The notes below the pieces were generated by a model. The model ran no database searches. It saw only the letters and a list, made by a program, of their open reading frames with translations, and was not told the DNA's origin. Of a stretch of 64,000 nt of DNA, positions 2,035 through 24,171 are shown one piece after another (position 1 is the first letter of the stretch; each line of letters opens with the position of its first letter). The position numbers were made by a program, and so were the translations under genes. Source of the DNA: an uncultured Dongia sp. (GTDB lineage: Bacteria > Pseudomonadota > Alphaproteobacteria > Dongiales > Dongiaceae); NCBI RefSeq assembly GCF_936916975.1, contig NZ_CAKZGO010000003.1, positions 124,001 through 188,000 of the forward strand, in the 5' to 3' direction.

Positions 2035-2035
2035 C

Positions 2036-3400
2036 ATGACGAAACCTCTTCACGAAACGATGCACCGCACCGCCAAGTATTTCATGGATAATGGGCGGGC
2101 GAAGACCGCGGATGAGGCGGTGGCGTTGCTCAAGTCTTACGGCTTGAATATCGCCGTCGGCCCCGAGATCCAGAGCAATGCTGCCGCCCAGATTGCCTTG
2201 CTGACGCTAGTCAATCTGGCGCGCCGCACGTTCCTAGGCGGCGTCTCGGTCGTTGGCCTTGGCGAAGCCAAGACGTTGGTCGCACTCTCGGCCCAGCCCA
2301 CCCTGGCCAGCGCCGTCCTGGAACTAGGCGGGCTGATCGCGGGCCGGCTCTCCGCGGCCTGGCCGACTGCGCTTATCGGCTCTGCCACTGCACCGGTAGA
2401 GACCGCGGCTCCGGTTTGGCGCCTGACGTGGCAAGGATGGCGCGCCGGCGTCGTCCCCGCTCGGGAAGGCTGGCGCTTATCTGATGACGAAACCTGTCCG
2501 TTGGCACCGGCTTTGGCGGCTGCGATCTGCACCGCGGAGGCCTTTTCCTTCCATTCCGGCGATGACGCCCTCTCAGGGAAACGTGGGGCTGGACTTTCGC
2601 TTTGGCAACCGGGCGTGGATTGGAAGTCCGTTGACAGCACCGAGGCCCCAATCACCTTCCTGCCGGCGAAGCTCTGGCTGATCGGCTTGGGCAATCTCGG
2701 GCAGTCCTATGCATGGCTGCTGGGCTGCTTCCCCTATCCGGAGCGGGTCGCGGAGATCATGCTCCAGGACTTCGATGTCCTTGGAGATTCGAACGACAGC
2801 ACGTCGGTTCTTACCTACGGCAAGTTTCTTGGGCGGCGAAAGACCCGATGGACCTCAGCATGGATGGAGACGCGTGGCTTCAATACAGTGATCGACGAGC
2901 ATCGTTTCGGCGCTTGGACGAAGCGTCAAGCGGATGAGCCTGGCGTCGCGCTCTGCGGTGTGGATAAGCCCCATCCGCGCGGTGCCCTCGAACAAGCTGG
3001 CTTCGACCTGGTAGTTGAGGCCGGTCTCGGTGCCGGGCCGCAATCCTTCCGCAGCTTCGCTATACACACTTTTCCGGGCCCGCGGCGTGCAGCGGATCTC
3101 TGGCCTACGACGCTGGTGTTGAGCCAGCCCACCGTCTCCGAGATGCCCGCGTACAAGGATCTCGCCACCAAAGGCCTGGACAAATGCGGTTTGGCGCAAC
3201 TAGCCTCACGCACAGTCGGTGTTCCCTTCGTCGGCCTAATCGCGGGTTCACTGGCAATCGCTGAGGTGTTGCGCCGGCTCAACGGGGGTGCGGGGTACGG
3301 CGTGATCGCGGGATCTACCCTCTCTCTCGGCGATGTAGAGGCTGGTCCCGGATCTCACCAAGTCTACCCATCGGGGTATTGCATGGCGTTACGGTACTGA
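2036..3400 (+). CDS. bilD: BilD-type E1-like ThiF/MoeB adenylyltransferase
   Basis: A 454-residue protein; the ORF track starts at 1952 inside bilC, but the ATG at 2036, one base after the bilC stop, is the natural start. The C-terminal half carries a Rossmann nucleotide-binding segment LIGLGNLGQ (~residue 218) and an acidic DFDVLGDSN segment, as in ThiF/MoeB/E1 enzymes. These adenylate the C-terminal glycine of a ubiquitin-like protein and carry it as a thioester. The N-terminal ~200 residues are family-specific. This is the last gene of the Bil operon. A 550-base gene-poor stretch with boundary repeats follows. Confidence 0.83.
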   Translation: MTKPLHETMHRTAKYFMDNGRAKTADEAVALLKSYGLNIAVGPEIQSNAAAQIALLTLVNLARRTFLGGVSVVGLGEAKTLVALSAQPTLASAVLELGGLIAGRLSAAWPTALIGSATAPVETAAPVWRLTWQGWRAGVVPAREGWRLSDDETCPLAPALAAAICTAEAFSFHSGDDALSGKRGAGLSLWQPGVDWKSVDSTEAPITFLPAKLWLIGLGNLGQSYAWLLGCFPYPERVAEIMLQDFDVLGDSNDSTSVLTYGKFLGRRKTRWTSAWMETRGFNTVIDEHRFGAWTKRQADEPGVALCGVDKPHPRGALEQAGFDLVVEAGLGAGPQSFRSFAIHTFPGPRRAADLWPTTLVLSQPTVSEMPAYKDLATKGLDKCGLAQLASRTVGVPFVGLIAGSLAIAEVLRRLNGGAGYGVIAGSTLSLGDVEAGPGSHQVYPSGYCMALRY

Positions 3401-3954: not shown

Positions 3955-6900
3955 TTAAACTTCAGAATCCGATGATTTCCACTCGGTGTATCTGATGCGA
4001 TCGAGTTCATTCATCGTTACGCTATGTTCCGTTAGCATTTGCGCCAAGTGTTCTTGGTTCAATAGTTCGACACCATTGAGTGCGGCATTTTCAACAGCCT
4101 GATGGCTGAAGAACTGGTTGGTAACGCAAACTTTGCCGAACTCAATGCCGGGATGTTGGCGACGATAAAATGCCTCGCCTGTCACTACGTCTTTGACAGC
4201 GTCCCATCCAAGTGAAGCGCGATCTATGGCGCTGCTCTTGACCTGGATGAGTTGGCCGGTTCCACCCCTGATCGCAACGATATCAACTCCATTGTCATTT
4301 CGGGAAGAGGTACGCTCGGAGACATAACCCCGCCTACTCCAAAGTGCTGCAATCAGGCACTCGAGGTGCTGCCATTCCATCCGCAACGTCATGTCGAGCG
4401 TCACACGCGCATCAAGCCCATTTAGGTCGGTGTCGGGGACCACATCTGCAATATTGAAATCACCGGGACCGACATCACCGGCGCCATTCAGCATATCATC
4501 GGCAAGTCCACGCTTGTGTTCGAGCAACTGATCAAGCTTGACATCGAAGGTCGTGAAATCTTCAGCGTGAACGACAGGATAGTAAACGTAAACATCCTTG
4601 GTCTGGCCAATGCGGTATGCGCGGTCAGTTGCCTGGTCCTCCTTGGCGGGATTCCAGGTGCGTGTGTAGTGAATGACGTGATTAGCAGCCTGGATGTTCA
4701 CGCCGAAGCCAATGGCGACAGGTGAGAGAATTAAAACTCCGAAGCCGGGCGCTTTCTGAAACGATTTGATGCGCTTTTGCCGACTGGCGACATGACTGGA
4801 AGAAGCGCTGGTATCTCCATTGATAATATCCGCCCGGATGCCGAGACTAGCTTCGATATAATGCTGCAGCAGTCGCTGGATTTCGCGAAACTCACAGAAC
4901 ACGATCGCCTTTTCGGACTTGTCCTTAATCACCTGCAACTGGTTAAGCAGCCAGTCGAGTTTGGGCGCCTTTTCGCGATATTGCCGTTCATCTTCCGGCT
5001 TGAAGATGCTGAGGCCATGTGGGCGCGGGTCGGTGCATATCAGCCTGAGATAGTGCAGAAGACCGAGATGATTTTTGAAGGGCGACGATCGACCTGGGTC
5101 ACTGCGATTTTTGAAGCTGTTGATCGCATTGGCATACAGATTGCGCTGGACGGCAGAGAGCGGCAGCTTACGGCACGAGCCCACTTCGATTTTAGCCGGG
5201 AGATTCTCAGCAACCTCCTTCTTGAGGCGACGTAGGATTTGGGGAGCGATGCGCTGCCGTAGTTCTTCGACACGCGCGCGTTCCTCGTCGGTTTTGGCTT
5301 CGATCGGCTTGCGATAACGTTGGCCGAAATCATTCAATGCGCCGAGCAAGCCTGGCTGAATGAAGTCGAACAGACACCACATGTCAGCAAGGGTGTTCTC
5401 GACAGGCGTTCCGGTGCAGGCAATCTTGAAAAATGCATTCTGCTTCTTTGCAGCACGGGTGACCATCGCTGCTGGATTTTTGACACGCTGTGCTTCGTCG
5501 CAAACCATCAGTGACCATTTTTGCGCAGCAAAGGAGAACTCCAGATCGCGCAGGGTTTCATAGGTGGTCAGCACGACGCGAGCATTGCTCACCCAGCCAG
5601 GGCGCAGGAATTTGACGAGCCCATCTTCTGTCTGAAGGCGCTGGTCGATTTGCGCTCGGGAAACGCGCAGCTGCCGCAAATTTTCGCCATAAGCCATCAG
5701 GAATGGTAGGCTATTCGGACGGAAATAGGTCGCAATTTCCTCCGCCCAGTTCTCGAGAAGTGATACCGGTGCGACGATGAGAACCGGCGGCGCCTCCGCA
5801 TCCCGCTCAATCAGCCAGGCCACGAGGCAAAGTAGCTGCAACGTTTTCCCCAATCCCATGTCGTCGGCGAGAACGGCACCACGCACTTGGCATTCGTCAC
5901 GTAATCCATAGAGATGCTGCATCCAGGCAACGCCCTCGCGCTGATGCGAATACAAGGAAATTTCGGACTTGAGCGCCAATGGCAGCTGTGGCTCACCAGG
6001 AAGATTGGCCAAGGCTTCACGGCGGGCTTCATCATATTCTAGCGACTGGATGTTAGCGCGCAGGACTAGCTGCTTGCGGTCATCTGCAGGGTCGGTGGCA
6101 GCCTTGCGCCGTTCCACAACCGGATTGAACTCGCCATTTTCCTTGGCATCCCGGACCACGCCACTGATGGTTTCGACAATTCGCCGCGCTTCCTCGACCT
6201 TGATGGGTTCCGGAAGCCAGGTGGCGTGGATTGTTGGCGCGCCCGCAGCTTCGGCAGCACCGATTGATTTCCTGAGGTCTTCGATGGACTCCGGGCTGGC
6301 CGGAATAGCAATCGGTTCCCTAGCATCGTCAGGTTGATAGACGATCATCGGCTGGATGTTTTCGGGGAACCAGCCCTCGTTATCCTTCTTCTTGGCGATA
6401 TAGGGAGAGTAGTAGGGCTTTTCCTTGCCAATGTCCGCGATCCGCGCCGAATAGAAGGTGAGGTCATGGATATCGGCGTAGGAAACCAGCGTTGGCGGCG
6501 TTTGCCGCGCGTGGAGAGCCGCCGACAATTCATCGTACACGCGCTGCGCATCGCCTTGGATTTCAAGGTCATACCCTTCCCAGGCGAGCAGCTGGCGCTG
6601 CGCGGCAATCGCTGCCTGCAAACCTATCAGGAATGTGGATAAATCGTCGTCGTTGAGCCAATGGGATTCCGACGATGTCGCCCCCTTGGAATTTGCCGAT
6701 TCAATCAGCAGCCCGATGCGGATGGGACGTCCGCTGACATCACGTTCGTAGATTGGTGAGAAGCGTTCGTAAAGCAATCCGGCATCGTCGCGGGCCTGCT
6801 CGAATTGCCGTTCCTCAATGACATCGACGGCATCGTCGCCGAGGGTCGCATAAGGGTTGAGGATAAACGCCTCGGCGCGCGATCCCGCGACGCGCCGGCC

Positions 6901-7728
6901 AGGGTATCGCTTGATTTCCTCAAGAACGGTTTGGATCTTCGGCGTTATCAGTATCTGCACGATGCCTTCGGTCGTGGCAACGTCATATCGAGCCCGAACC
7001 TTGCTGCTGCCATCAAATGCCGCCAGCCAGCCCAGTGGTGCATCCGAAAATCCCGGCTCGATCTCGATTACGTGATCATCTTTGATATACTCGGACTTCC
7101 GCAAGCCAATTTGCAGCTTGTCGGGTGTAAGCACGACGGACCGATAAAGGAAATCGTCAAGGCGCGCTTCCGCTTCACGCGCGAGGAGGCGAATGCGGCC
7201 CCAGGCGCGCCGATGGAAACTGTCATCGCGCTGATCCGCTGACCGGCGCGCGAAGGCGAAAACCTCCCTGACCAACCGCCACTGGGACGCAGTCATCAAC
7301 TTTGTTCCAGTGGGATTGCTCATGACTGGCCCCGTGAGGTTCCAGTCACTAACCCCTTCGCCAGATCGATACCAGCCGGAGAGGACAATCGAGAAATCGG
7401 TATCGGTCAACCCATTCCGGCTGCTGAGGACGGGCAGATAATCCGTGATAGTGGGCAGGGAAAGCGTTTGCGGTAAACCGGCATAGTCGGGCCGTTCCAA
7501 GGCGAGATAGAGTGAATCCCAGTCGATCGAGAAGCCGTCCGGGGTCTCTACGGCCAGACCATCATCAGACAATTGCGTCAGTAAACCGTGGAGATGCGGA
7601 TCCTCAAGGCGAACGACTTCCTTATCGATGCCCTGGGTGAGGTCGATGCCGAGGTCTGACCAGCGCCGGCCCCAACCACCCTGATGATCGCTACCCGACC
7701 GCTTGAAAAGCCTAAGCATCCTTGGCAC
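3955..7728 (-). CDS. zorD: ZorD: SNF2-family helicase with C-terminal Mrr-like nuclease
   Basis: A 1257-residue protein. Residues ~590-1060 form a SNF2/SF2 ATPase with Walker A DDMGLGKT, motif II CDEAQ and the C-terminal helicase signature AYRIGQT. The last ~150 residues are a restriction-endonuclease-like fold with NGVDIVA and QVKSS, the D...QxK pattern of Mrr/PD-(D/E)XK nucleases. This is the type I Zorya effector, which degrades invading DNA once the ZorAB motor complex has sensed infection. The N-terminal ~580 residues are family-specific. It overlaps zorC by 17 bases and is the last gene of the operon. Catalytic residues in both domains look intact. Confidence 0.92.
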   Translation of the reverse strand: MPRMLRLFKRSGSDHQGGWGRRWSDLGIDLTQGIDKEVVRLEDPHLHGLLTQLSDDGLAVETPDGFSIDWDSLYLALERPDYAGLPQTLSLPTITDYLPVLSSRNGLTDTDFSIVLSGWYRSGEGVSDWNLTGPVMSNPTGTKLMTASQWRLVREVFAFARRSADQRDDSFHRRAWGRIRLLAREAEARLDDFLYRSVVLTPDKLQIGLRKSEYIKDDHVIEIEPGFSDAPLGWLAAFDGSSKVRARYDVATTEGIVQILITPKIQTVLEEIKRYPGRRVAGSRAEAFILNPYATLGDDAVDVIEERQFEQARDDAGLLYERFSPIYERDVSGRPIRIGLLIESANSKGATSSESHWLNDDDLSTFLIGLQAAIAAQRQLLAWEGYDLEIQGDAQRVYDELSAALHARQTPPTLVSYADIHDLTFYSARIADIGKEKPYYSPYIAKKKDNEGWFPENIQPMIVYQPDDAREPIAIPASPESIEDLRKSIGAAEAAGAPTIHATWLPEPIKVEEARRIVETISGVVRDAKENGEFNPVVERRKAATDPADDRKQLVLRANIQSLEYDEARREALANLPGEPQLPLALKSEISLYSHQREGVAWMQHLYGLRDECQVRGAVLADDMGLGKTLQLLCLVAWLIERDAEAPPVLIVAPVSLLENWAEEIATYFRPNSLPFLMAYGENLRQLRVSRAQIDQRLQTEDGLVKFLRPGWVSNARVVLTTYETLRDLEFSFAAQKWSLMVCDEAQRVKNPAAMVTRAAKKQNAFFKIACTGTPVENTLADMWCLFDFIQPGLLGALNDFGQRYRKPIEAKTDEERARVEELRQRIAPQILRRLKKEVAENLPAKIEVGSCRKLPLSAVQRNLYANAINSFKNRSDPGRSSPFKNHLGLLHYLRLICTDPRPHGLSIFKPEDERQYREKAPKLDWLLNQLQVIKDKSEKAIVFCEFREIQRLLQHYIEASLGIRADIINGDTSASSSHVASRQKRIKSFQKAPGFGVLILSPVAIGFGVNIQAANHVIHYTRTWNPAKEDQATDRAYRIGQTKDVYVYYPVVHAEDFTTFDVKLDQLLEHKRGLADDMLNGAGDVGPGDFNIADVVPDTDLNGLDARVTLDMTLRMEWQHLECLIAALWSRRGYVSERTSSRNDNGVDIVAIRGGTGQLIQVKSSAIDRASLGWDAVKDVVTGEAFYRRQHPGIEFGKVCVTNQFFSHQAVENAALNGVELLNQEHLAQMLTEHSVTMNELDRIRYTEWKSSDSEV

Positions 7729-9409
7729 TCATCCACCAGCCCTTGCCTTCTCTGTAGCGAAAGCCCCATTTGGCAAGGGTCCGGGCAACATGTGAATTGT
7801 TGTCACCGGTTCGAATCCAAAGATTCCCGCCGACGTTCGTCTTGTCTTCGACCTGCAGCTTGTATTCGCGCGCAAAGGCCCGGAGAGCGTCGTGCGTGAA
7901 CCTCTGGGCCGGTTGCGGCGGCGTGTTCGTGGTTGGCCGAGGTTGAAAAGGCGGCGTTGGCGGCGCCGACACGCCTGAAGGTCGCCTCGGTGTGGCGGGG
8001 CTGTGCTCACCAGGCGAGATGTTGAACTTCTGACGCAGCTCGGCTTCAAACATTTCTTCCCACGAGCTCCAGCCGCGAATGTCGTCTTGATGACTGAGCT
8101 TTAGAGAGTTCCGAGTGCTGTGCTTAAGTGAGTTATGTGCATCCACTCTGAGTTGCAGACTCTGCCCGCTATTAAATGGAAGATCCCGTCGCGCATCGTA
8201 GCCATAGAGTGCATTGCCAGTGCTACTGAATTCGACCGCAACGAGATCTCCCATTCGCATGATGAAAGCGTTGTCGATTCCGGTTGCATTCAAGTTTTTG
8301 ATCAGGCCGACCATTTTCGTTCGGAGAGCAACGAAGTCGCGGTCGGTCGAATAGCGAGCATGGGAACCGAGTGCGAATTCTATACTGTTGATCTGCTTGG
8401 CATAGCGCTTCCAGAATTCCATTCTACGGGTGTCGCCGAGGCCATCCTCTGCCAATTTGGTGAAGAACGTTTCGATAAATTCCCGGTTTAGCCAGGTGCC
8501 GACCATCTCGCGCGCTTCGGAATTGACGCCACCCCAGCGCGTTGCGTTGGAGGGCAGCCAGGGATTGCCCCACCAAAGAATGGCCGCATCGCGCAATCCC
8601 TGATGCAATGGTTTGCCATCAATCTTCGCATATCTATCAAGTAGCATGATGAGGCCACGATCACGCATGATCCCATTTTTGCCCAGGAGATCAAGCAGGC
8701 GAGGCAATCGTTCCACAAACGAAGAATCGTTGCCGATGATCGCGCCCCGAATCTGGGCGAGGACCAGTTCTCGCTGGAACCACGATGCCTGGGGAATGCC
8801 GAGCTGTTCGCACAAGTCGGTGACAATGCGGGAATCGCCGTTGAGCAGCGCATCGACATAGCGGCTATAGGGATCTGCGCCGAAGAGAGTGCGGTGATCG
8901 ATGGCTGTCTGAACCCAATCCGGGTTTGATGTTACGTCGGCAATCCGGTCATTCCGCTGGTTGAGGTAGTCACGCAGTTGATGCCAGTTCCCGCGGCTGG
9001 CGTCGGATACGGTGTCGCTCAATCCATCATAAGTGAAATAGCTGGCGATCATACCCTTGTAACAGCGTCGATAGTAACGAGGCTCCGCCAGCCAGGCATC
9101 GATCTCGTTCAGAATTCGCGCGAGACGCGCCTGATCGTCGATCACACAGGGGCCTCCAGTGCGATGGGGTAGCGCGAGGCTCCATGAGAGGAGATAGATA
9201 TCCCTGAATGATTGCTTCTCGTTGCTGTTCCAGAACCGGTCAAGTGCGGCGATCTGTTGGTCGATGGGGATGGCCGAGCCGTTGCGAGAGTTTGCCCGCT
9301 TCTTCATCTCGGCCAGCACATCATCCATATTATCGGCAGTCGGCATAGGTCTGCCTGCGATTTCAATGGCGGGCTGAAGCAAGGCCGCAAGTTGTTGTAG
9401 CTGTTGCAT
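7712..9409 (-). CDS. zorC: ZorC: EH-signature-domain protein of type I Zorya
   Basis: A ~565-residue protein between zorB and zorD, which is the diagnostic position and size for ZorC. The ORF track begins at 9421, but the ATG at 9409 forms a TGATG overlap with the zorB stop and has AGGTG nine bases upstream, so it is preferred. The C-terminus has a proline-rich linker and then a small module with RTGDNNSHVARTLAKWGFRY and GKGWWM, probably DNA- or partner-binding. ZorC is thought to bind DNA and cooperate with ZorD. Identity is by context and general resemblance to EH-signature proteins. Confidence 0.88.
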   Translation of the reverse strand: MQQLQQLAALLQPAIEIAGRPMPTADNMDDVLAEMKKRANSRNGSAIPIDQQIAALDRFWNSNEKQSFRDIYLLSWSLALPHRTGGPCVIDDQARLARILNEIDAWLAEPRYYRRCYKGMIASYFTYDGLSDTVSDASRGNWHQLRDYLNQRNDRIADVTSNPDWVQTAIDHRTLFGADPYSRYVDALLNGDSRIVTDLCEQLGIPQASWFQRELVLAQIRGAIIGNDSSFVERLPRLLDLLGKNGIMRDRGLIMLLDRYAKIDGKPLHQGLRDAAILWWGNPWLPSNATRWGGVNSEAREMVGTWLNREFIETFFTKLAEDGLGDTRRMEFWKRYAKQINSIEFALGSHARYSTDRDFVALRTKMVGLIKNLNATGIDNAFIMRMGDLVAVEFSSTGNALYGYDARRDLPFNSGQSLQLRVDAHNSLKHSTRNSLKLSHQDDIRGWSSWEEMFEAELRQKFNISPGEHSPATPRRPSGVSAPPTPPFQPRPTTNTPPQPAQRFTHDALRAFAREYKLQVEDKTNVGGNLWIRTGDNNSHVARTLAKWGFRYREGKGWWMSAKDA

Positions 9410-10122
9410 CACAGCATGCACCTGCCGAATCCTTGGCCTTCGCGTGGTGCCTGAGTGACAGCGCGTTTTTCACCCAAGCTCAGTAATTCCAAGCGCATTT
9501 CAACCCGACGACTCTGCTCATCCGACTCCTTGGCGTCATTGAAGGAATAGCCTCCAACCAGAAACAGATTCCGCACATCGGCCTTCTGGTTTTCAGAAAG
9601 AAGATTGTCCCCCACCTCAGCAAACATCGCGCAGACAACTCGCTGGCTGCGCTGAAGGCTGAGATTCAAATTGAGGAGATATTCGCCCTTCTTGTCGGTA
9701 TAGCCTTCGACGACGACACGTTTGAGAACGCGTTTCCCGAGCTCATCATTGGCCAAGGTCAGTATCTCCGGGACAAACTGCCGGAGCACGCGCTCCTGAT
9801 CATGGGTCAGATTGTGCTTGTTGGATGCAAACTGCGCGCGATCACCAAAATCCACGACACGCCGATCTAGGTCGATCCTTATGCCCGGATACCGCTTCGC
9901 AGCCTCCATGAACCTTCGCAAAAACTCATCGACATCTTGTTTATATTGTTGCTCCAGTTTCTCTTGCTCGGTGACTGTTTTGGTGACGGCAAGCAATGCC
10001 ACCGCCATGACGACCAGAAACAAGACCATAAGCGCGGTCATGAGATCGGCGAAGGATATCCAGAAAGGCTTTTCGGCCTCGTCCTTCCCACCACGCTTTA
10101 TGGATAGCCGGGTTCCGATCAT
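9409..10122 (-). CDS. zorB: ZorB: MotB-like stator protein with OmpA-like peptidoglycan-binding domain
   Basis: A 237-residue inner-membrane protein. A single N-terminal transmembrane segment begins FWISFADLMTALMV; the aspartate is residue 26, the proton-binding position known for ZorB/MotB-type stator proteins. The periplasmic part ends in an OmpA/MotB peptidoglycan-binding domain (VVEGYTDKKGEYLLNLNLS and LFLVGGYSFN...SRRVEMRL). With ZorA it forms the proton-driven sensor complex. It lies three bases downstream of zorA and overlaps zorC. Confidence 0.93.
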   Translation of the reverse strand: MIGTRLSIKRGGKDEAEKPFWISFADLMTALMVLFLVVMAVALLAVTKTVTEQEKLEQQYKQDVDEFLRRFMEAAKRYPGIRIDLDRRVVDFGDRAQFASNKHNLTHDQERVLRQFVPEILTLANDELGKRVLKRVVVEGYTDKKGEYLLNLNLSLQRSQRVVCAMFAEVGDNLLSENQKADVRNLFLVGGYSFNDAKESDEQSRRVEMRLELLSLGEKRAVTQAPREGQGFGRCML

Positions 10123-10125
10123 GGC

Positions 10126-12195
10126 CTAACTCCGTACCGGGGTTTTCACGCCTGCGGTTGCCAAAGTGCTATCAAGTTCGAGAATGGTTGCCGAAAGGAG
10201 CTGAACCGCCGATGTAAGCTTGGTGTGGAACTCGTGGTTAGCCCTGTCCAAGGTGCGTTTGATCTCATCGGCGAAGGATTGATGTGCTTCGGCCAGCACC
10301 TTGCTGACACCGTCGAGATAGGTGTCAGCCTGTGTTTGCGCGGTGCCAAGGCGTGCGGCCGAATTTTCGATGCGCGCCAGAATATCGCCGGTGAGGGCCG
10401 CCTCCTTACGTGCGCTCTCCACGACATTCCGTAGTTCGGTCATCAGCAGGCCAACGGCGTCGCGCTGTGCCCGGTAGTCGTTCAGCAATTCCTGAAGGGC
10501 GGTAGCGCCGGAAATCAATGCCCCTGAGGTCTCCGACATCCGGGCGGAAACGAGTGCAGCTTGATCAATTACACTAGCCACCCTTTGCCCAGCGCTGGCG
10601 AAGCTGTCGGCGGCGGCACTGATCTGCCCGGCACCCAGGTTCATTTTGTCAATCGAGATATTGGTCGCATGAGTGAGAAGCTGCATGTTCTCGGCCATCA
10701 AAGACGAAGCGTTGGCGATTTCCTTGATCGCCGTGTCGACGGAATCGGTCATCGCACCGACGGCGGTTTGTGTCCGCTCGCTCATCGCTTGTTCGCGGGC
10801 GCGGTTGTTTTCATATGCCGCGGTTTGGGAATCGGTCAGCTTCTCCAGCATGTCACTAACTTGAGACCCAATAGTCTCCAGTGTTGCCTGGATTTTATGG
10901 CTGGTTTCGGTTTGTGAGGTTGATGTTAGCTGTTTGATTTGCTCCACGAAGGCGATCGATTGCGTGTTGATCGCTTCCTGGCGGGCTTCCATTTTTTCGA
11001 TGGCCTGGGCCATTCTTTCGGCCATTGTATCGGTGGATCGGCGGCTAGATTCCTCAATATTGCTAACTAGGGTCCGCAAGGTACCGACAGCTTCCTGCAT
11101 GCTTTGGGCTGTTTGCTTGTTGAGGTCGCTGAGGCCCGAAATCTGCCCGCCGAACAGGTCATTCAGCCGCTGGCTGAAACTGGTCATGACATCCTGCAGC
11201 ATGCGGCCAGCCGACGCACTCTGATCACCGGCGGCGGTCTTGACGACCTCGGCGATATCGCGCAGCGGGCCTTGCAGGCTGGTCTGGATGCCCTCGGCGA
11301 TGGCGCTGGCCAGATTGCGGCTGTCCTCCCGCGCCGCCTCGGTAAGCCGAGTAACCATCTGGCCCTGCTGTTCCCGTGCCGATGCAATCTGTGCTTCGGT
11401 CAATTCACGCAGCAAATCGCCCAGCTCGCTCACCAAGGCGTCCTTGAGGATTCTGGACTGGCTGGCAGACTCTTCCGACGAAGTTACGAGGCGAGACAAA
11501 TACTCTTCGCCAACGCCGGAGACGAACCGTTCGTCAATGGTATGCGCGATCTGCTCGGTCAGGCGGTAGAGCCATGCGAGGAGGAATTTTTCAATAAAGG
11601 TGATTGCGATGGCGAGGGTAATGGCAGTTGCCGAGATCAGAAAAGCCTGACTGACATCGTCCATCAGAAACTTAAGACTTGTTTGGGATTTGGTCGGGTC
11701 GCTCACGTCCAGCTTTTGCAAACCCTGGATCAGGCCGCCAAATGTGCCGATAATTCCAATACCAGTAAATATTCCAGGGAGGTGTTTGAAGAATTCCGTA
11801 TGCCGACGGGTGTCGACGAGAAATTGATTGTTAAAGTAGATTTCCGCCGGACCAGTGGCGCGCACAGCAATTATCTCCGTCTTGCCGTCGCGCTCTATGC
11901 GCTGGATATGCAAGGACTCGCGATACTCCCTCCAAAGATAGTCCAGCCGTTTGTGCTTGGCGAATATCTCGTCGAACTCGGTGATGGCATTCTGCGATGA
12001 AGCCGATGTCAACCTGTTTCGCAAGAGCCTGAAGCGGACACCATGCCATATGCCCGGCAACAGGAAGAAGAACACAAACAAGGCTGTGAGAAGAGTGAGG
12101 ACAACGAACGCTGTGCTATGCAGCTGCGGGAGCACTGCGGCCAGAAACTTGTCCGCATCGCGGGCGATATCGGCGAGAAGAGAATCGAGGTTCAC
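10126..12195 (-). CDS. zorA: ZorA: MotA/ExbB-like stator protein with long cytoplasmic tail
   Basis: A 689-residue protein. Membrane segments near residues 30-50 (VVLTLLTALFVFFFLLPGIW), ~140-160 and ~190-210 carry the MotA/ExbB proton-channel fold, including GIGIIGTFGGLIQGL. From ~residue 230 to the C-terminus it is almost all heptad-like, Gln/Ser/Ala-rich helix, matching the long intracellular tail of ZorA that transmits the signal to ZorC/ZorD. The start is a GTG that overlaps the stop of the preceding RHH gene (GTGA), so translation of the motor is coupled to that small gene. Confidence 0.93.
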   Translation of the reverse strand: MNLDSLLADIARDADKFLAAVLPQLHSTAFVVLTLLTALFVFFFLLPGIWHGVRFRLLRNRLTSASSQNAITEFDEIFAKHKRLDYLWREYRESLHIQRIERDGKTEIIAVRATGPAEIYFNNQFLVDTRRHTEFFKHLPGIFTGIGIIGTFGGLIQGLQKLDVSDPTKSQTSLKFLMDDVSQAFLISATAITLAIAITFIEKFLLAWLYRLTEQIAHTIDERFVSGVGEEYLSRLVTSSEESASQSRILKDALVSELGDLLRELTEAQIASAREQQGQMVTRLTEAAREDSRNLASAIAEGIQTSLQGPLRDIAEVVKTAAGDQSASAGRMLQDVMTSFSQRLNDLFGGQISGLSDLNKQTAQSMQEAVGTLRTLVSNIEESSRRSTDTMAERMAQAIEKMEARQEAINTQSIAFVEQIKQLTSTSQTETSHKIQATLETIGSQVSDMLEKLTDSQTAAYENNRAREQAMSERTQTAVGAMTDSVDTAIKEIANASSLMAENMQLLTHATNISIDKMNLGAGQISAAADSFASAGQRVASVIDQAALVSARMSETSGALISGATALQELLNDYRAQRDAVGLLMTELRNVVESARKEAALTGDILARIENSAARLGTAQTQADTYLDGVSKVLAEAHQSFADEIKRTLDRANHEFHTKLTSAVQLLSATILELDSTLATAGVKTPVRS

Positions 12196-15138: not shown

Positions 15139-15639
15139 TCAGGTCAGCCTGCCCATAGAGTAGCCAAACTCCCCCGCGCCGGCCGCTTCCAGCTCTGCGC
15201 GCACTTCCTGTTCGCGCCCCCTGCCTGTCCAGGACACCGTGGTTCCGCTGTATCTGAACTTTCTGCTTTTGACAGGCACCTTCGCCTCCTCGCTTGGGGC
15301 GTCAACGAACTTCACCCAGAGATCCCGGACCGGATCTTTGTCGACGTTGGGAGCGCTCTCGGCCTTGGGCGCAGCTGCCAGTTTCGCCTTTTCGGCCTCC
15401 TCCCAATCCAGGATCCCCTTCGCTTCCGCCAGGACATCCTTCAGCTTCGGATACGGCGTCTTGCCGAGACCGGCAGCGATCACCGTGCCGCCGAGCTGGA
15501 TCTTCTTCCGCGTATCCGCCTTGCGCTGCTTTTCCACTACGCCTTTCCGCCGGCGTTGCGCCCATAGCGCGAGTTCTTGAGCTTCCCGCTCGAACTGCTC
15601 TATCGCCGTGAGCTCCTGCTGCAATGCCTTCTTGCTCAT
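15139..15639 (-). CDS. TraD-like conjugal transfer accessory protein
   Basis: A 166-residue protein from the ATG at 15639, which has AAGGAG ahead of it; the ORF track runs upstream into the intergenic hairpins. The segment RKADTRKKIQLGGTVIAAGL is typical of the short TraD proteins of Ti-type plasmids (DTRRKIxLGG), and the gene is divergent to a TraA/MobA-type relaxase, as in those systems. The C-terminal third (FRYSGTTVSWTGRGREQEV) carries a WTGRGR motif that recalls the H-NS DNA-binding loop, an unusual extension. Probable role: relaxosome accessory at oriT. Confidence 0.6.
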   Translation of the reverse strand: MSKKALQQELTAIEQFEREAQELALWAQRRRKGVVEKQRKADTRKKIQLGGTVIAAGLGKTPYPKLKDVLAEAKGILDWEEAEKAKLAAAPKAESAPNVDKDPVRDLWVKFVDAPSEEAKVPVKSRKFRYSGTTVSWTGRGREQEVRAELEAAGAGEFGYSMGRLT

Positions 15640-16197: not shown

Positions 16198-19100
16198 ATG
16201 GCCATCGGCTACATCAATGTCTCGATCGTGGGCACGGCGCGCGGCAACAGCGTGGTCGGGCTTGCCGCCTATGTCTGCCGGCGGAACACCGTCAGCCAAG
16301 TCGACGGCGCCGACTACCGCTTCGCTCATCAGGCAGGCGATCTGGGCGCGGTCGACGTTCTTCTGCCGCCGGGAGCTCCGGCCGCTTTCCAAGATCCGAT
16401 CGCCTTCTGCACAGCGCTGGAAAGGGCCGAACTGACCCGCCCGCGGCGCAAACAACCGACCCGCTGGAAGCACAATGCCCAACTGGCGAAGCACGTCATT
16501 CTAGCGCTGCCGAAGGAATTGACCGGGCCTGAGCGCCGACGTCTCGCCCGGGACTGGGCGGAGACGCAATACGTCGCTCACGGCGCCGGATGCGTGGTAG
16601 CACACCACCGCCCCGATCCGGTCGGTTCCGACAATCATCACGCCCACATCATTGTCAGCACCCGTGAGGTGAGCTCGAACGGCCTCGGCAACAAGCTGCG
16701 CGAACTGAACCCGGCCTTCAGCCGTGGCGCCAGCCACGACAAGGCCAATTTGCACAAGGAAGACCTGCCGGCCACGTGGCGGCAGTTCCAGGAAGCCTGG
16801 TTCCGGGCAAACGGCATCAAGATCCAGGTCGATGCGCCGGCCGCCGTCTCCGGTGTCCATCTCGGCGCCGCGAAGCACGCCAAAAGGTCGGCCGCCTTCG
16901 CGGTCAAACGTGCCAACGATGCCGCAAAGAAGGATGCCAGCGAACGCCTGCATGATCCTCAGAACCTCCTGTGGGAGGCGACCCGGCAACGAGCCACATT
17001 CACGCTGCGCGACCTCTCACGGATCTTGCAGCGCCACGGGATTTTAGGCGGCGAGGCCTCAGCGATCATTGAGGCCGCGCTCGCCCTCGGCGAAGCCGTC
17101 GCCCTCTTCGACCGTGAGACCGGTCAGCCGACCCAGTTTTTCACGACACGGACCGTCCGCAACCAGGAACGGCGGATCGTGGGGACGGCCCAGATCATCG
17201 CCAAACGGCGCATGAGCGCCAAGAGGAGGAGGCTCGTCGAGGCCGATCTCGACGGTCGCATGCCGGCGCTCGAGCTCAGCGCAGAGCAGTCCGACACCCT
17301 TCGGCGCATCCTGGCGGCACCCGACCTGCAGATGCTCCACGGCTTCACCGGCTCCGATAAATCCCGCCTGACCCAGGCCGCACGGCAGTGCCTCGAAGCC
17401 GTCGGATATCGTGTCATCGGCCTTGCTCCCACCAACACCGGTGCCTGCGCGATGGCCGTCAGTGGCTTCGGTGACGCCACGACCATCGATCTCGAACTTC
17501 TGCGCCAGGAGAATCCGGGCGCTCGGTCTAATGCCTGGAACAAGCGCACCTGCCTGATTGTCGACGATGCCGACATGGTCGACGCCCCCCGCTATGAGCA
17601 CTTGCTCATTGCGGCCGCCAAGGCCGAGGCCCGGATGATCCTGGTCGGCGACGAAAGCCGCTCGACCTCTGTTGAACGCGGGGGGGTTTTTGACGCGCTC
17701 AGGGAACGCCATGGCTGGAACGGACTGACCGAGTTTTCCCACCAGAACGACGACTGGGCACGTGCTGCCAGCGATGCCTTCGCCAGGGGCCGTGTGAACG
17801 ATGGAATCCGCGCCTATGCCGAACGCGGCCGCCTTCAGTGGTCGGATCGGCTCGATCAGACGATAGACGATCTCGTCGCGGCCTGGGTGCGGGACAATCG
17901 GATGGACCCTGGCGCCAACCGGTTCGTCTACGCCACCAACGACGACGTCGTCGACCGGCTCAACACCGAGATCCAGGCGGCACGATGGGCGCGGCGGCCC
18001 ATTCCACCCACGCGATTCAACACCATTCGCGGTAACGGCCACCTGCTCCCCGGCGACCGAATCCAGTTCCACGCCGGTAACCGCAGATTCGAGATCGCCG
18101 CCGGGATGGTGGGAACGGTCAGGCAGGCCGCCGCTGACCGTATTAGCTTTTATACGGATGACGCGAGGGTCCTGAGTTTCGGCCCCAGGAGATTCAAGGG
18201 CTGGGGCCTCGGTTACGCCGGGACGGTCTATCGGGGCGCAAGTAAGGTGCACGACCAGGTCTATGCGCTCTACGACGACAAGCTCGCCTGGCATGTCCGG
18301 ACGTCTCAAATCGGCTTTACCCGGCACCGGGAGGACCTCACCCTCTTCGTGCCTCGCGCACTCGCGGCCGACGAGCAGGCCCTCGTCCGCCAGATGGCGC
18401 GCGCGGACCAAAATCGTCTGTCTCTGGCCTTCACTGGTACGCAGGAAGCCGCCGAGATCGCCAAACGTCTTCGGCGCGCGGCGCTCAAGCCGGCGCTGCC
18501 GCTCATTCTTCGAGTGCGGGGCGCCGACGGACAGCTGCTCACCTTCGATCTTCAGTCGGAGGACGGCCATAAAGCAGCGAGAGGGTATCTTTTGACAGCA
18601 AGCCCAAGCCAGCTCGCGGTCGCCTATCGCAACGTTCAACAACTGGCCCGGCCGGCGAAGTCTCGCGGCACTGCGCCCAACGACGCCGAGATCCTCCGCC
18701 GCCAAATCGACGGCATCGCAAAGAGACTTGGCCTGAACGCCGTAACCGGTGAGCCCGCTTCAGATTGCCTCAAACATGCGCTGCTTGTGCGCGAAACAGC
18801 CTGGCATCTCGACGCTTCGGGTCTCGATACCGAGGTTCGTGACAGCACCGGCAGATACATGAACATCGCATGGCTGCTGTTCAACCCAAACCTGGTTCCA
18901 TGGGCCAGTTGGGCGGCGCTCGGGCGGAGGCTGCGCCAGCTGCACGGCAGTGTCCTCGATGCGCTTATCGAGCGCCTACACCAAATTCGCAATTGCGACA
19001 CCATCTCGGACGACATGCGGAGCGCCTGCGCCCTGGCACAGCATCTGATCCGCATATCGCGCGTCATCCGCGACGGCGCCAACCTCACCCGCGAGCAGCT

Positions 19101-19833
19101 TCGCTTCGAGCGCACGATCGAAGCCGCACCGCGGCTGCTCTGGCCGGCACTCCGCTTCTTCCGTGCCGACAAGGAGGAGAGCTCTCATGACGAGATCGTG
19201 TTGGAGGCGCCGGACAAGCGCGTGCCGATCCGCACCGAGCCCAGCAACTATCTCGAGCGCATCGACCCGGATGGGGAGCGCTATCTCGACCAACGACAGG
19301 CGTCGTCCACACCGACTGCTTTGGCAAAGCACGCTATCGCAGTGGTCAAGCCGCCAGCACTGTCAGATAGCAACAAGGCGCAACTGAGATCCAAGCTGAT
19401 GCACGAGATCAAGGCGAATGTCGCGGAAGCTGGCGCCCGGATTGCCGCTTTGACCCCAGACGATTCGCCGATGAAGACGGCGGCTTTGCACATGCGGAAG
19501 GATTCGCTGGAGCGTCAGCTTGCGTTGCTCAACGCCAATCCATCCATGTATGAACTTCCCGGCACAGAGCCGTCGAACGGCCCTACCCTCTCGCGCGCAG
19601 AAGCCGATGCCCGCGCCCTCACCCTCTCCGGCGCCGCAGCGCCGCCCGTCCGACCGTCTACCGACGACCGACCGCGAGACGGATCGAAGCCGACACTGCC
19701 CACCAGCGACACGCAGCGGCATGCGTCCGATATCGAGGACGATCTCGACGCTGATCCTCCACCCACGCTGAAGTCGGCATCGACGCCACGACCTAAGCCG
19801 CCCGCACGGCCGCATGACGATCAAACAAGATGA
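16198..19833 (+). CDS. MobA/TraA-type relaxase fused to degenerate SF1 helicase domain
   Basis: A 1211-residue protein from the ATG at 16198, with GGGAG upstream. Residues 1-230 are a MobA/MobL relaxase: AAY in GLAAYVCRRN (nicking tyrosine candidate) and the metal-binding HHAHII (~147-152). Residues ~350-620 align with the TraA/RecD2-like helicase, but every motif is altered: GFTGSDKS for GxAGTGKS (~382), VDDADMV for DEAGMV (~456), GDESRSTS for GDxxQL, and SHQNDDW where TraA has RRQ. It should nick oriT, but its own ATPase is probably weak or dead. The C-terminal ~350 residues are polar and end in a proline-rich tail. The reading frame is intact. Followed by a three-gene set of unknown function. 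Confidence 0.82.
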   Translation: MAIGYINVSIVGTARGNSVVGLAAYVCRRNTVSQVDGADYRFAHQAGDLGAVDVLLPPGAPAAFQDPIAFCTALERAELTRPRRKQPTRWKHNAQLAKHVILALPKELTGPERRRLARDWAETQYVAHGAGCVVAHHRPDPVGSDNHHAHIIVSTREVSSNGLGNKLRELNPAFSRGASHDKANLHKEDLPATWRQFQEAWFRANGIKIQVDAPAAVSGVHLGAAKHAKRSAAFAVKRANDAAKKDASERLHDPQNLLWEATRQRATFTLRDLSRILQRHGILGGEASAIIEAALALGEAVALFDRETGQPTQFFTTRTVRNQERRIVGTAQIIAKRRMSAKRRRLVEADLDGRMPALELSAEQSDTLRRILAAPDLQMLHGFTGSDKSRLTQAARQCLEAVGYRVIGLAPTNTGACAMAVSGFGDATTIDLELLRQENPGARSNAWNKRTCLIVDDADMVDAPRYEHLLIAAAKAEARMILVGDESRSTSVERGGVFDALRERHGWNGLTEFSHQNDDWARAASDAFARGRVNDGIRAYAERGRLQWSDRLDQTIDDLVAAWVRDNRMDPGANRFVYATNDDVVDRLNTEIQAARWARRPIPPTRFNTIRGNGHLLPGDRIQFHAGNRRFEIAAGMVGTVRQAAADRISFYTDDARVLSFGPRRFKGWGLGYAGTVYRGASKVHDQVYALYDDKLAWHVRTSQIGFTRHREDLTLFVPRALAADEQALVRQMARADQNRLSLAFTGTQEAAEIAKRLRRAALKPALPLILRVRGADGQLLTFDLQSEDGHKAARGYLLTASPSQLAVAYRNVQQLARPAKSRGTAPNDAEILRRQIDGIAKRLGLNAVTGEPASDCLKHALLVRETAWHLDASGLDTEVRDSTGRYMNIAWLLFNPNLVPWASWAALGRRLRQLHGSVLDALIERLHQIRNCDTISDDMRSACALAQHLIRISRVIRDGANLTREQLRFERTIEAAPRLLWPALRFFRADKEESSHDEIVLEAPDKRVPIRTEPSNYLERIDPDGERYLDQRQASSTPTALAKHAIAVVKPPALSDSNKAQLRSKLMHEIKANVAEAGARIAALTPDDSPMKTAALHMRKDSLERQLALLNANPSMYELPGTEPSNGPTLSRAEADARALTLSGAAAPPVRPSTDDRPRDGSKPTLPTSDTQRHASDIEDDLDADPPPTLKSASTPRPKPPARPHDDQTR

Positions 19834-19951: not shown

Positions 19952-20434
19952 ATGAGGAAGAAAAGGATTTTGGTGCCAAGTGGGTTATATCCGGTGCCGA
20001 CACCTGGCCTCCGGCCCCGGTTCGAGCTGAAGCGTCACCAGTTTCATCTGACGCCACAGACACCCGATCTCACTGGCAAGTTCCGCTGCCGGCCGCGTTA
20101 CGGCCATCAGCAGATCGCCTGGGATCTGAAGCTTTGCGCCTTCGCCGCCATCGTCCGGCCGGATCTTCCGGACCAGCCGCTCGATCGGCTGTCGGAGGAA
20201 GTCTTCGAGCTCGCCAAGGAGCTGACAGCACTTCTCAGCCAGCCGGCGGGTGCGCGGCCGGAAAGCGAGATCGACGCCGCCTGGACCCAAGTCTCTCTCG
20301 CCCTCGCCATGCGCGGCGATCGGCGCATCTACGCCACGGACAGGCCGTTCGACAGCTCTCGTGGCCTCGGCACCCTGGTGCTGGCGATTGCGCCCGCCGC
20401 CTATGAGCTCTGCGACATCACGGTCACCGCCTGA
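19952..20434 (+). CDS. Unknown protein, paralogue A of the post-relaxase operon
   Basis: A 160-residue protein; the ATG at 19952 has GGAGAGAG upstream, so the longer ORF-track start at 19892 is not used. It shares a scaffold with the next gene: IVRPDLPxxPLDxLSE in the middle, a helix, then GTLVLAIAPAAYELCDITVTA at the C-terminus. The N-terminus is rich in Arg, Pro and Lys. No known domain, signal peptide or membrane segment. It lies 118 bases after the relaxase and 33 bases before its paralogue, so likely one operon. Confidence 0.65.
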   Translation: MRKKRILVPSGLYPVPTPGLRPRFELKRHQFHLTPQTPDLTGKFRCRPRYGHQQIAWDLKLCAFAAIVRPDLPDQPLDRLSEEVFELAKELTALLSQPAGARPESEIDAAWTQVSLALAMRGDRRIYATDRPFDSSRGLGTLVLAIAPAAYELCDITVTA

Positions 20435-20467
20435 CCGATCGAGCGACCGAACATCCTGGAGAATCCC

Positions 20468-20923
20468 ATGAACCAGCTCGTGCCGGTTCCGTCGCCACCG
20501 GCGATGGAACCGATCGTCCACTATCGCGTGCCGCGGCCGAAAGGCAACCATAGCTATCTTCCGGTCGACGTCACCTGCGCCCGGGGCTGCCTCATCGGCA
20601 TCCTGGCCGACCTCGACCGCTGCAACCTGGCCTTCGTGATCCGGCCGGATCTGCCGGCCTGGCCGCTCGATCCGCTATCGGAGCGTCTCGCCGCAACAAC
20701 GGAGGCCCTGACATCGCTTCTCGGCTGGCCTCGCGGCAGCAAGGAAGTGGCCGGGCTGGCGTTTGCCATTCTCGATCTCCAGCGCGAACTCGACTTCCGC
20801 GGCGAGCGCCAGATCCTCGCCAGTGCACGCCTGCCCGGCCCGTCGCGCAACGGCGGCGACGTCCTGGTCATCGCCGTCGCACCCGTCGGCATCCACGCCT
20901 GCGATCTCACCTTCACAGCCTGA
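20468..20923 (+). CDS. Unknown protein, paralogue B of the post-relaxase operon
   Basis: A 151-residue protein with GGAG before its ATG. It is clearly related to paralogue A: FVIRPDLPAWPLDPLSE corresponds to IVRPDLPDQPLDRLSE, and both end in a hydrophobic strand plus CD(I/L)T(V/F)TA. Two diverged copies kept in tandem suggest a heteromer or division of labour rather than redundancy. No recognisable catalytic motif. It is followed 17 bases later by the Fic-fold gene. Confidence 0.65.
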   Translation: MNQLVPVPSPPAMEPIVHYRVPRPKGNHSYLPVDVTCARGCLIGILADLDRCNLAFVIRPDLPAWPLDPLSERLAATTEALTSLLGWPRGSKEVAGLAFAILDLQRELDFRGERQILASARLPGPSRNGGDVLVIAVAPVGIHACDLTFTA

Positions 20924-20940
20924 TATTCCAAGGAACCACC

Positions 20941-22440
20941 ATGCCCAGCCAGATCATCGAACTCTCGGATTCCATCCTCCACGGCCTCGTCGGCCGCAAG
21001 GACCTCTATTTGCGCGGTAACTTCGCCAAGGCCGGCTACAGCATCGCCTTCGAGGATGATCCCGAACGTCCGCTGACCGTGCGTGTCTCGGTCAAGCCGG
21101 GGAAGTTCGGCGCCTACAGCCTGTTTCGGCGCGATGTCCTGGTGGCCGTGCTGAAGCCCAAGGGCGGCGCCCCGATCGCCTATGAGCCGCTGCGCCTGCC
21201 GGATGGCGACGTCCTCGTCATGCTGGACCAGATCGACGCAGTGCTCGACGGTCTCCCCGATTTGAGCGGTCATACGCGCTTGGCCCTGAAGCGCGCGACC
21301 AATGTTGCGCGCCAGGCGACACGCGACCGGCCGGTGGTGCGCCGCCAGCACGCCTCCGCCTTCGAGCTCGGCCTGCTGCGAACCGCCCGCCGCTTCGAGC
21401 GGCGGCACCGGGACGCCCTGTGCCGGCTGGGGCATCAGGTCGACGCCTATCGCACCGCCCTCAGTGAACCGTGGCTGGAACCTGCCATTGCGCGGTTGTC
21501 GGTGCAGGCAGCCTTCGGTGACGTTCTCCTCGTCGAGCGCCGTCTCCAGGACATGCCCCGGGCGGGCCTCCTGTTCCTGCGTGAACGCGGCGACATCTTC
21601 GAGGCGCATCGCGACAATGAACAGACGCTCATCGCCCTTGAAGAAGGCGTCAAGGTTGTCGGACTCCATGGTGACATGCCGCCGATCGCCCTCGATCGCA
21701 AGATGGTCCTCCGCCTGCACCGGATGGTGGCACCTGACGTCTACCGGCTGCCCGGCACCCTCTGGCGCCAGCGGAACTGGATGTTCGCCCATGAAGGTAA
21801 CCGGTGGTCGGCGCCCATGGCGCCGGCACACGCCATCGAGGCGCTCTTGATCCGCTATGGTAAAGCGGTTGATCGGGACCTCTGGGCCGGCGTTCATCCT
21901 CTCATCCGGGCCGGCCTGCTGCACCTGGAGCTCCTCAAGATCATGCCCATGCCGGATACGAACTTCCTGGTGGCACGCCTGCTGCTGTCGCTGATGCTGC
22001 ACGAGGCCGGGATGCCGTTCCTGCCGCTGCCGGCACTGCTGTTCTGGGACCGGGAGCGCTATCTGCGGACTGCCCAGGCCGCCATCCGCAAGGACGATGC
22101 CGGGATCTTCCTGCGCTACCTCGTCGATCTTGCCGGCAAGGCATCCCGCCGGGGTATCTACATGGCCGACCGCCTGCGGCCGGCCTACGACCACATGCAC
22201 CGGGAGCTTCTCATCCCGGGCGAGACCGAGGGCGGTTCCGCGGCACTCACCGAAATGGCGCTGTCGCGGCTGTTCATCTCGGACACCAGCGAGGTCTCCA
22301 GCCACTACGCCGCCTTCGCCCGGATCGACGAGCTGGCCAAACCCGACCTCTGCGACGAGATCATCCTCGCCGGCGGGCGCTCCTATTCGCATGTCCTCGT
22401 GCGGGAGCTGACACGAAGGCCGCGGGACATGCGGGGGTGA
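20941..22440 (+). CDS. Fic-fold protein with degenerate active site
   Basis: A 499-residue protein with AAGGAA before the ATG. The first ~110 residues are a domain of unknown type. From ~275 it follows the Fic/DUF4172 layout: LPGTLWRQRNWMF, then HPLIRAGLLHLELLKI, and in the place of HPFx(D/E)GNGRxxR the sequence MPMPDTNFLVAR (335-346), then LLLSLMLHEAGMPFLPLP and a helix ending FLRYLVDLAGKA. Pro, Asp, Asn and the final Arg are kept, but the catalytic His is Met, both glycines are Thr and Phe, and the first Arg is Leu. AMPylation is therefore unlikely. Forms an operon with two paralogues of unknown function. Confidence 0.65.
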   Translation: MPSQIIELSDSILHGLVGRKDLYLRGNFAKAGYSIAFEDDPERPLTVRVSVKPGKFGAYSLFRRDVLVAVLKPKGGAPIAYEPLRLPDGDVLVMLDQIDAVLDGLPDLSGHTRLALKRATNVARQATRDRPVVRRQHASAFELGLLRTARRFERRHRDALCRLGHQVDAYRTALSEPWLEPAIARLSVQAAFGDVLLVERRLQDMPRAGLLFLRERGDIFEAHRDNEQTLIALEEGVKVVGLHGDMPPIALDRKMVLRLHRMVAPDVYRLPGTLWRQRNWMFAHEGNRWSAPMAPAHAIEALLIRYGKAVDRDLWAGVHPLIRAGLLHLELLKIMPMPDTNFLVARLLLSLMLHEAGMPFLPLPALLFWDRERYLRTAQAAIRKDDAGIFLRYLVDLAGKASRRGIYMADRLRPAYDHMHRELLIPGETEGGSAALTEMALSRLFISDTSEVSSHYAAFARIDELAKPDLCDEIILAGGRSYSHVLVRELTRRPRDMRG

Positions 22441-22627: not shown

Positions 22628-23011
22628 ATGGATCGCGACGATAAAGGCATCAACATCGCGTCTCAGCGGGGCATATCGGGATTCCTTTCGGAGTCCGCAA
22701 GTGGTCTTCGCGAGGCGCAGAACGTTTCGGGACAAGTATCGTTGCAGACAGATTCAGCTACTGCTTCTCAAGAAATGACGATCTCGACACTGGTGCCGTT
22801 TATTCAACGCCGAGAAAAGCGTCGCCGAAATCGCGTCAGGAAGTCGGATCTGATGAGCGCGATTGAGGCAGTGATAGCCACCGGAGCCGAATTCTCTCAT
22901 GTGGAGGTCGACGCCGTGAACGGCAAATTCATCGTATTCACCTCACGTGCTGAACCAGCGCCACAAAATGCCTTTAAAGACTGGAAGAAAAATCGTGCGC
23001 ATAAGGCTTAA
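22628..23011 (+). CDS. Small protein overlapping the integrase (prophage/island type)
   Basis: A 127-residue protein from the ATG at 22628 with AGGTGG just upstream. The C-terminal half, LMSAIEAVIATGAEFSHVEVDAVNGKFIVFT, matches a recurrent short protein encoded directly ahead of integrases on alphaproteobacterial islands and prophages. It overlaps the integrase start by ~44 bases, implying coupled translation. A role in integrase control or excision is plausible but unproven. The ~190-base gap before it (22441-22627) shows no gene. Confidence 0.6.
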   Translation: MDRDDKGINIASQRGISGFLSESASGLREAQNVSGQVSLQTDSATASQEMTISTLVPFIQRREKRRRNRVRKSDLMSAIEAVIATGAEFSHVEVDAVNGKFIVFTSRAEPAPQNAFKDWKKNRAHKA

Positions 23012-24080
23012 AGGAATCAACTGGACTGAGAAGCGTCTCGCCGACGGCTCCATGCGAACTTATTATTATGCTTGGAGAGGTGGTCCAAAATTGCCAGGAA
23101 AACCTGGCGATGCTGCTTTCATCGCCGCCTACAACGCTGCCATAGCCGAGAAGGCCGCGCCCGCGGAAGGCGTCCTGCAGGTTATCGTCGACGCCTACCA
23201 GCAAAGCGAAGAGTTTCTTCGGCTCGCGGATCGCACGCGTCGGGACTATATCGGCAAGATTAAGCTGATCGAAAGGGAATATGGGGATCTTCCCCTCGCG
23301 GCGCTCTCAGCAAGAGGAATGCGCGGAGAATTTCTCGATTGGCGCGATGCTCTCGCGAAGTCTTCGCACCGGCAAGCGGATTACGCCTGGACAGTCCTAG
23401 CTCGTATCCTGTCGTGGGCACTCAACCGCGAGAAGATCGACGCCAACCCCTGCGAGGATGGTGGCCGGCTCTACAGCGGGAGCCGCGCCGAGTTCATTTG
23501 GACGCACGACAATGAGGAAGCATTCCTGAAATCGGCTCCTGCCCATCTTCATTTGCCATTCTTACTGGCGCTTTGGACGGGGCAACGGCAAGGCGATCTC
23601 CTGCGTCTGCCTTGGTCCGCCTATGATGGCACGCATATCCGGCTCCGCCAGAGCAAAACGCGGAAAAAGGTAATCGTGCCAGTCGGCGCTCCGTTAAAAA
23701 TTGTCCTGGATGCCGCTAAGGCCGTGCGGGTCGGACCGATCATGCTTACGAGCACCGACAAGACGCCATGGACTAGCGACGGCTTCCGGTCGAGCTGGAA
23801 GAAGGCATGCGTAAAGGCGGGTATTAAAGAACTCACCTTTCATGATCTGCGCGGCACGGCTGTCACCCGGCTCGCGATTGCCGGAGCCACCGACATCGAA
23901 ATCGCCACCATTACAGGCCTCAAACTTGGCTCCGTCGAAACCATCCTTGACGAGCACTATCTCAGCCGAGAGGTGGAGATCGCAAACCATGGGCAGGCGA
24001 AGCGAGTGAGGCACGAGGCGAGAACAAAATCTCAAACCGGCTCTCAAACCGGCAAAAAACGGCCGGGCCGAAAGAAGTGA
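22968..24080 (+). CDS. Tyrosine recombinase / island integrase
   Basis: About 370 residues; the ATG at 22968 (MPLKTGRKIV) is used rather than 22947. The catalytic domain carries the arginine in LALWTGQRQGDLLRL, FHDLRGTAVTRLA (His-x-x-Arg box) and the tyrosine in HYLSREVEIA, so the Arg-His-Arg-Tyr set looks complete. The N-terminal part has an arm/core-binding domain. It ends 18 bases from the 3' end of tRNA-Gln, the usual arrangement for an element that integrates into the tRNA 3' end. It would mediate integration and excision of the island carrying Bil, Zorya and the mob region. Confidence 0.92.
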   Translation: MPLKTGRKIVRIRLKGINWTEKRLADGSMRTYYYAWRGGPKLPGKPGDAAFIAAYNAAIAEKAAPAEGVLQVIVDAYQQSEEFLRLADRTRRDYIGKIKLIEREYGDLPLAALSARGMRGEFLDWRDALAKSSHRQADYAWTVLARILSWALNREKIDANPCEDGGRLYSGSRAEFIWTHDNEEAFLKSAPAHLHLPFLLALWTGQRQGDLLRLPWSAYDGTHIRLRQSKTRKKVIVPVGAPLKIVLDAAKAVRVGPIMLTSTDKTPWTSDGFRSSWKKACVKAGIKELTFHDLRGTAVTRLAIAGATDIEIATITGLKLGSVETILDEHYLSREVEIANHGQAKRVRHEARTKSQTGSQTGKKRPGRKK

Positions 24081-24097
24081 TTATCCAATTAAATCAA

Positions 24098-24171
24098 TGG
24101 CTGGGGGACTAGGATTCGAACCTAGACTGGCGGAGTCAGAGTCCGCTGTCCTACCGTTAGACGATCCCCCA
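24098..24171 (-). tRNA. tRNA-Gln (CTG), island attachment site
   Basis: The minus strand reads TGGGGGATCGTCTAACGGTA at the 5' end and closes with TCCCCCA-G-CCA, a 7-bp acceptor stem with encoded CCA. The anticodon loop CTCTGAC gives anticodon CTG, glutamine. The T-arm GGTTCGAATCC is present. The 3' end faces the integrase gene, so this is the attR/attL half next to the integrase. The matching direct repeat should lie left of the window. Confidence 0.95.

Follow-up and report, generated by a model that had tools for sequence, protein, structure and literature searches.

Downstream of the mobilisation genes of an integrated defence island is a run of three genes ending in a 499-residue Fic-domain protein, P0003, whose catalytic loop is destroyed while its reading frame has stayed open. 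The reading we prefer, at about even chances, is that P0003 is a former Fic toxin of a mobilisable element that would now serve as a non-catalytic binding protein (pseudoenzyme), alongside a relaxase that has lost its ATPase motifs.

The run lies on the forward strand of the window (the whole 64,000-nucleotide stretch analysed here) and is composed of P0001 (160 aa, unknown family; 19952..20434), its paralogue P0002 (151 aa; 20468..20923) and P0003 (20941..22440), arranged head to tail with gaps of 33 nt and 17 nt. Preceding the three open reading frames are the purine-rich ribosome sites AAGGAGAGAG, CTGGAGA and CAAGGAA, respectively, and the small gaps together with a site before each frame make co-expression likely. 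Coding GC3 is strong (0.76–0.84), and across the ~2,000 codons of four genes there is no stop despite many changed catalytic positions, all frames being open. On co-expression, on the paralogy of the two small genes, on the Fic homology of P0003 and on the loss of its catalytic loop, the analysis agrees with the first-pass annotation.

P0001 and P0002 are 40% identical over 107 aa (E 7e-21) and share the motifs RPDLPxxPLDxLSE and CD(I/L)T(V/F)TA, the latter at the C-terminus. Neither has a significant match in Pfam, NCBIfam, PADLOC, PHROGs or the plasmid collection, and neither carries the [S/T]xxxE[G/N] inhibitory motif. Viral contigs searched with the paralogue alignment gave no relative, a weak negative as the scan used short peptide patterns. 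A structure prediction of the pair reached a pLDDT of 49.5, too low to be of use. Weak profile matches in three other genomes (G001, G008 and G011; E 0.0016–0.04) were set aside, as they look like chance readings of GC-rich frames of other genes.

P0003 covers the whole 93-position Pfam Fic profile above its cut-off (E 5.1e-6; 27.7 bits against 24), and its top phmmer matches in the PDB are all Fic proteins (best E 5.5e-4). The PADLOC SoFic profile (PDLC03963) matches at E 2.7e-13 over residues 231–424 only, and the NCBIfam SoFic equivalog scores 10.7 bits, far below its cut-off of 550. Single-sequence AlphaFold2 prediction gave a pLDDT of 33.6, too low to inform on the fold, and a DUF1612 match (E 0.38) was dismissed. 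The catalytic loop (residues 334–346; window 21940–21978, forward strand) reads IMPMPDTNFLVAR where Fic proteins have IHPFxDGNGRxxR. Aligned with it were 17 Fic proteins, all of which have the loop H, D, G, N, G, R and last R; in the columns I-H-P-F-x-D-G-N-G-R-x-x-R, P0003 has I-M-P-M-P-D-T-N-F-L-V-A-R. Retained are Pro336, Asp339, Asn341 and Arg346; lost are the catalytic His, the Phe, both Gly and the first Arg, and with H, F, G, G and R gone its MPMPDTNFLVAR does not match the AMP-transferase loop HPFx[D/E]GN[G/K]RxxR. A flap-like PGxxRxxxNW stretch before the loop is partly kept (P271, G272, N279 and W280, with the Arg replaced by W275), which we count in favour of a pseudoenzyme. P0003 has no [S/T]xxxE[G/N] match, the class II SxxIEG motif being lost in the alignment (S181P, E184A), and no BID secretion domain family was found in Pfam at E ≤ 1. 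No relative of P0003 was found in phages; scans of genome contigs with P0003, and of viral contigs with the Fic alignment, likewise returned none, weak negatives in that both used short peptide patterns.

Directly upstream of the three genes, near the integrase end of the element, is a TraD/TraA-type mobilisation pair, so that the set, which had been described as having no obvious transfer function, follows mobilisation genes on an integrative mobilisable element. The pair is composed of a TraD-like mobilisation accessory protein (15139..15639, reverse strand; Pfam TraD E 1.8e-8) and, divergent from it, a TraA/MobA-type relaxase-helicase (16198..19833, forward strand; Pfam MobA_MobL E 1.5e-20, AAA_30 E 2.2e-35). 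In alignment with its relatives the relaxase keeps its nicking residues, with the Tyr and HUH intact, and its helicase motifs are altered: Walker A GxAGxGKS has become GFTGSDKS, Walker B DE has become DD, and GDDRQ, RRQ and GQGKT have become GDESR, SHQ and GASKV. Of the columns invariant in seven relatives, the helicase has lost 15 of 60 and the relaxase domain 3 of 28, and the helicase losses cluster in the motifs (9/19 against 6/41 elsewhere; Fisher p 0.01, with motif windows drawn by the analyst). By these alignments the region has lost both of its ATP-using centres, in the Fic protein and in the helicase, and has kept the nicking centre. The first-pass annotation mentioned neither the relaxase upstream nor the loss of its helicase motifs. 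A genome-contig scan with the relaxase alignment gave no relative, a weak negative given its short peptide patterns. Adjoining the TraD-like gene is a protein (13845–14915, reverse strand) matching the PADLOC candidate-defence families PDC-M41B (E 6e-64) and PDC-M30B (E 7e-60).

On the 3′ side of P0003 are a tyrosine integrase (22947..24080, forward strand; Pfam Phage_integrase E 3.4e-14) and then tRNA-Gln, whose 3′ part forms an att repeat (24098..24145) with an exact 48/48 copy outside the window at G000:C3:100493-100540. The repeats are 47.6 kb apart, giving an element of ~47.6 kb in tRNA-Gln that lies mostly to the left of the Fic genes. It also carries, back to back, the Bil defence genes BilA, BilC and BilD (585..3400, forward strand) and a complete type I Zorya system, ZorABCD (3955..12195, reverse strand), both identified by PADLOC. 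Because it has an integrase, att repeats in a tRNA gene and a relaxase but no T4SS of its own, the region is read as an integrative mobilisable element that carries anti-phage systems. The one VirB4 match in the genome sits on a different contig, C40 (L023), which also holds VirB11-like and RepC-like genes, Cas9 and an intact Fic (HPFQDGNGRLSR) with the class II type SSTRIEGS; C40 may provide a helper for transfer of the element, and its intact Fic is a possible partner of P0003.

Among 17 genomes of the order compared, one of the same family, G013, repeats the arrangement of a relaxase gene, two small genes and a Fic gene. Its relaxase is 40% identical to that of the window, has intact helicase motifs and lies next to a divergent upstream TraD-like small gene that resembles its window counterpart weakly (E 0.003); behind the relaxase come two small genes and then a full-length Fic homologue, 29–30% identical to P0003 (30% over 352 aa, E 4e-27). 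The two Fic proteins share an MxSQxIxL start; that of G013 has an intact loop, HGFSDGNGRLAR, scores 42.7 bits against Pfam Fic (27.7 for P0003) and has no inhibitory motif of its own. The shared gene order, relaxase identity and intact loop are counted for the pseudoenzyme. The gene before the G013 Fic has TAQLEG near its start, a class I antitoxin pattern that arises by chance in 4% of shuffles. The P0001/P0002 profile weakly matches the G013 small gene P0007 with a collinear C-terminus (P 0.013), which is suggestive of homology; the other small gene, P0008, shows no similarity to the pair and had no match in 367 genomes by a weak search. The linkage implied by the annotated three-gene module thus holds for the Fic gene, which stays with a relaxase in G013, but for the small paralogues amounts to this profile match. 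The G013 island (L021:163-19696) comprises Druantia, the TraD-like gene, the relaxase, two small genes, the intact Fic and a metallophosphoesterase, and is followed by recombinase-like genes and tRNA-Arg (L022).

In a congener, G004, the Fic gene is reduced to its final 81 codons, 85% identical and beside a different integrase and tRNA-Lys. The dead full-length form was found in one genome only, and searches of 385 genomes from the class and 399 from the phylum gave nothing closer, so the module, judged from these genomes, is rare. Relaxases of rhizobial and Microvirga plasmids (H66–H71) are 33–36% identical to that of the window, and the Mesorhizobium plasmids also have a divergent TraD gene; the aligned plasmid relaxases differ in keeping intact helicase motifs. 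As no Fic gene is annotated adjacent to the related relaxases in annotated plasmids, the Fic set seems to have been added to this TraA/TraD mobilisation type.

The ancestor of P0003 would have been a Fic toxin encoded, together with TraD, the relaxase-helicase and two small genes, in the mobilisation region of integrative mobilisable defence islands of this family; if the G013 TAQLEG gene is a class I antitoxin, the ancestral set would have been a toxin–antitoxin pair riding with mobilisation genes, much as VbhTA accompanies TraA in Bartonella (PMC5675462). In the window lineage the Fic active site would have been lost and selection would have retained P0003 for a predicted binding role rather than for chemistry, with P0001 and P0002 as its putative small partners and with a relaxase that kept its nicking residues and lost its ATPase motifs. 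That both the loop and the inhibitory motif are missing from the window set would be expected, since no activity would be left to restrain. For its most likely action we infer, weakly, that P0003 fills the partner or target site of an active Fic, an occupancy that would protect the cell from the Fic of a related island or of the resident conjugative contig; alternatively, it may tune the mobilisation complex. Neutralisation of one Fic by another has been shown in Campylobacter (PMC5651007), and the most specific proposal for P0003 is that it competes with active Fic proteins. An extension of it, decidedly improbable in our estimate, is that the relaxase-helicase and the Fic turned into pseudoenzymes together and form one complex with P0001 and P0002, for example one blocking active Fic proteins that competing mobile elements deliver or carry, so that immunity or exclusion would arise from a dead toxin.

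Against a retained protein stands decay: with the island settled in its chromosomal site, selection on the transfer region would have lapsed, and the Fic and helicase sites would be among the first to fall to drift. The loss of catalytic residues in both mobilisation-region enzymes, the truncated Fic of G004 beside its other integrase and tRNA-Lys, and the fact that no T4CP gene is seen next to TraD all fit this account; the unbroken frames, the intact relaxase Tyr and HUH residues, the att repeats identical across 48 bp and the strong coding GC3 do not. The changes at the five invariant Fic codons of P0003 required 10 or more substitutions among 15 nucleotides, and at that rate neutral evolution would leave ~24 stops in 499 codons, where none is observed; faster change of the loop under positive selection would weaken this argument. 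Comparison of the C-terminal 81 codons with G004 gives a dN/dS of 0.18, a value that covers the C-terminus alone and is set against a fragment that may be a remnant. The absence of stops and this dN/dS favour a kept non-catalytic protein; because the loop may have been under positive selection and the dead form is a single example, decay stands as a tentative second reading, somewhat unlikely in our view.

Fido proteins with non-canonical loops can have changed chemistry, and P0003 might still be an enzyme of this kind, a toxin held by P0001 and/or P0002. The two small genes upstream of it are a common antitoxin arrangement, Asp339, Asn341 and Arg346 are retained, and Fic2 of Campylobacter fetus is still toxic with a degenerate motif (PMC5651007); however, P0003 is without the catalytic His, either loop Gly or the first Arg, and the small proteins lack [S/T]xxxE[G/N], making this unlikely. 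Less probable still is that the three genes make up a new system of defence or exclusion in their own right: support for the exclusion or defence role suggested by the first-pass annotation comes down to the defence-gene neighbourhood of Bil and Zorya, and the PADLOC SoFic similarity, which would point the same way, is confined to residues 231–424 with the equivalog score far under its cut-off. Moreover, it is the relaxase that the Fic gene accompanies, and no particular defence system: in G013 the cargo is Druantia and not Bil or Zorya.

Conjugation-linked Fic modules are already known, and the P0003 set would be a variant with a dead loop. On the Bartonella plasmid pVbh, VbhT–VbhA is genetically linked to TraC/D and to a TraA relaxase of the rhizobial type; VbhT is a Fic toxin that is active and has a BID secretion domain derived from a relaxase, and its antitoxin is known (PMC5675462). 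Shared with it are the linkage of a Fic gene to a TraA-type relaxase, a small partner gene and a setting in alphaproteobacterial mobile DNA; in the window, by contrast, the loop is destroyed, no BID was found and P0001 and P0002 match nothing in searches. More generally, the small partner of class I Fic toxin–antitoxin pairs (VbhTA, FicTA) carries the [S/T]xxxE[G/N] that these two proteins lack. C. fetus subsp. venerealis has Fic1/Fic2, Fic3/Fti3 and Fic4/Fti4, partly on an ICE, and its degenerate Fic2 is toxic in E. coli (PMC5651007). That system likewise places a degenerate Fic beside active ones, with small upstream partner genes; P0003 differs in lying behind a relaxase and in the loss of the catalytic His, both Gly and the first Arg. 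With class II Fic proteins and SoFic (PDLC03963) it shares the Fic core and flanking helices but not the SxxIEG inhibitory motif or the catalytic loop.

If the pseudoenzyme reading is right, this would be a natural conjugation-linked toxin module turned binding module, with the active form in a related genome for comparison, so that the purpose of dead Fic proteins becomes testable; it would also give the mobilisation genes of such islands a companion that resembles a toxin. Left of the window, in L048:10910-15691, is a 412-aa gene without a PADLOC match; the 1179-aa protein beside it matches LmuB weakly (E 7.7e-7). Also to the left, within the same element, is an LmuA-like protein (L048:440-1540; PADLOC E 1.6e-52).
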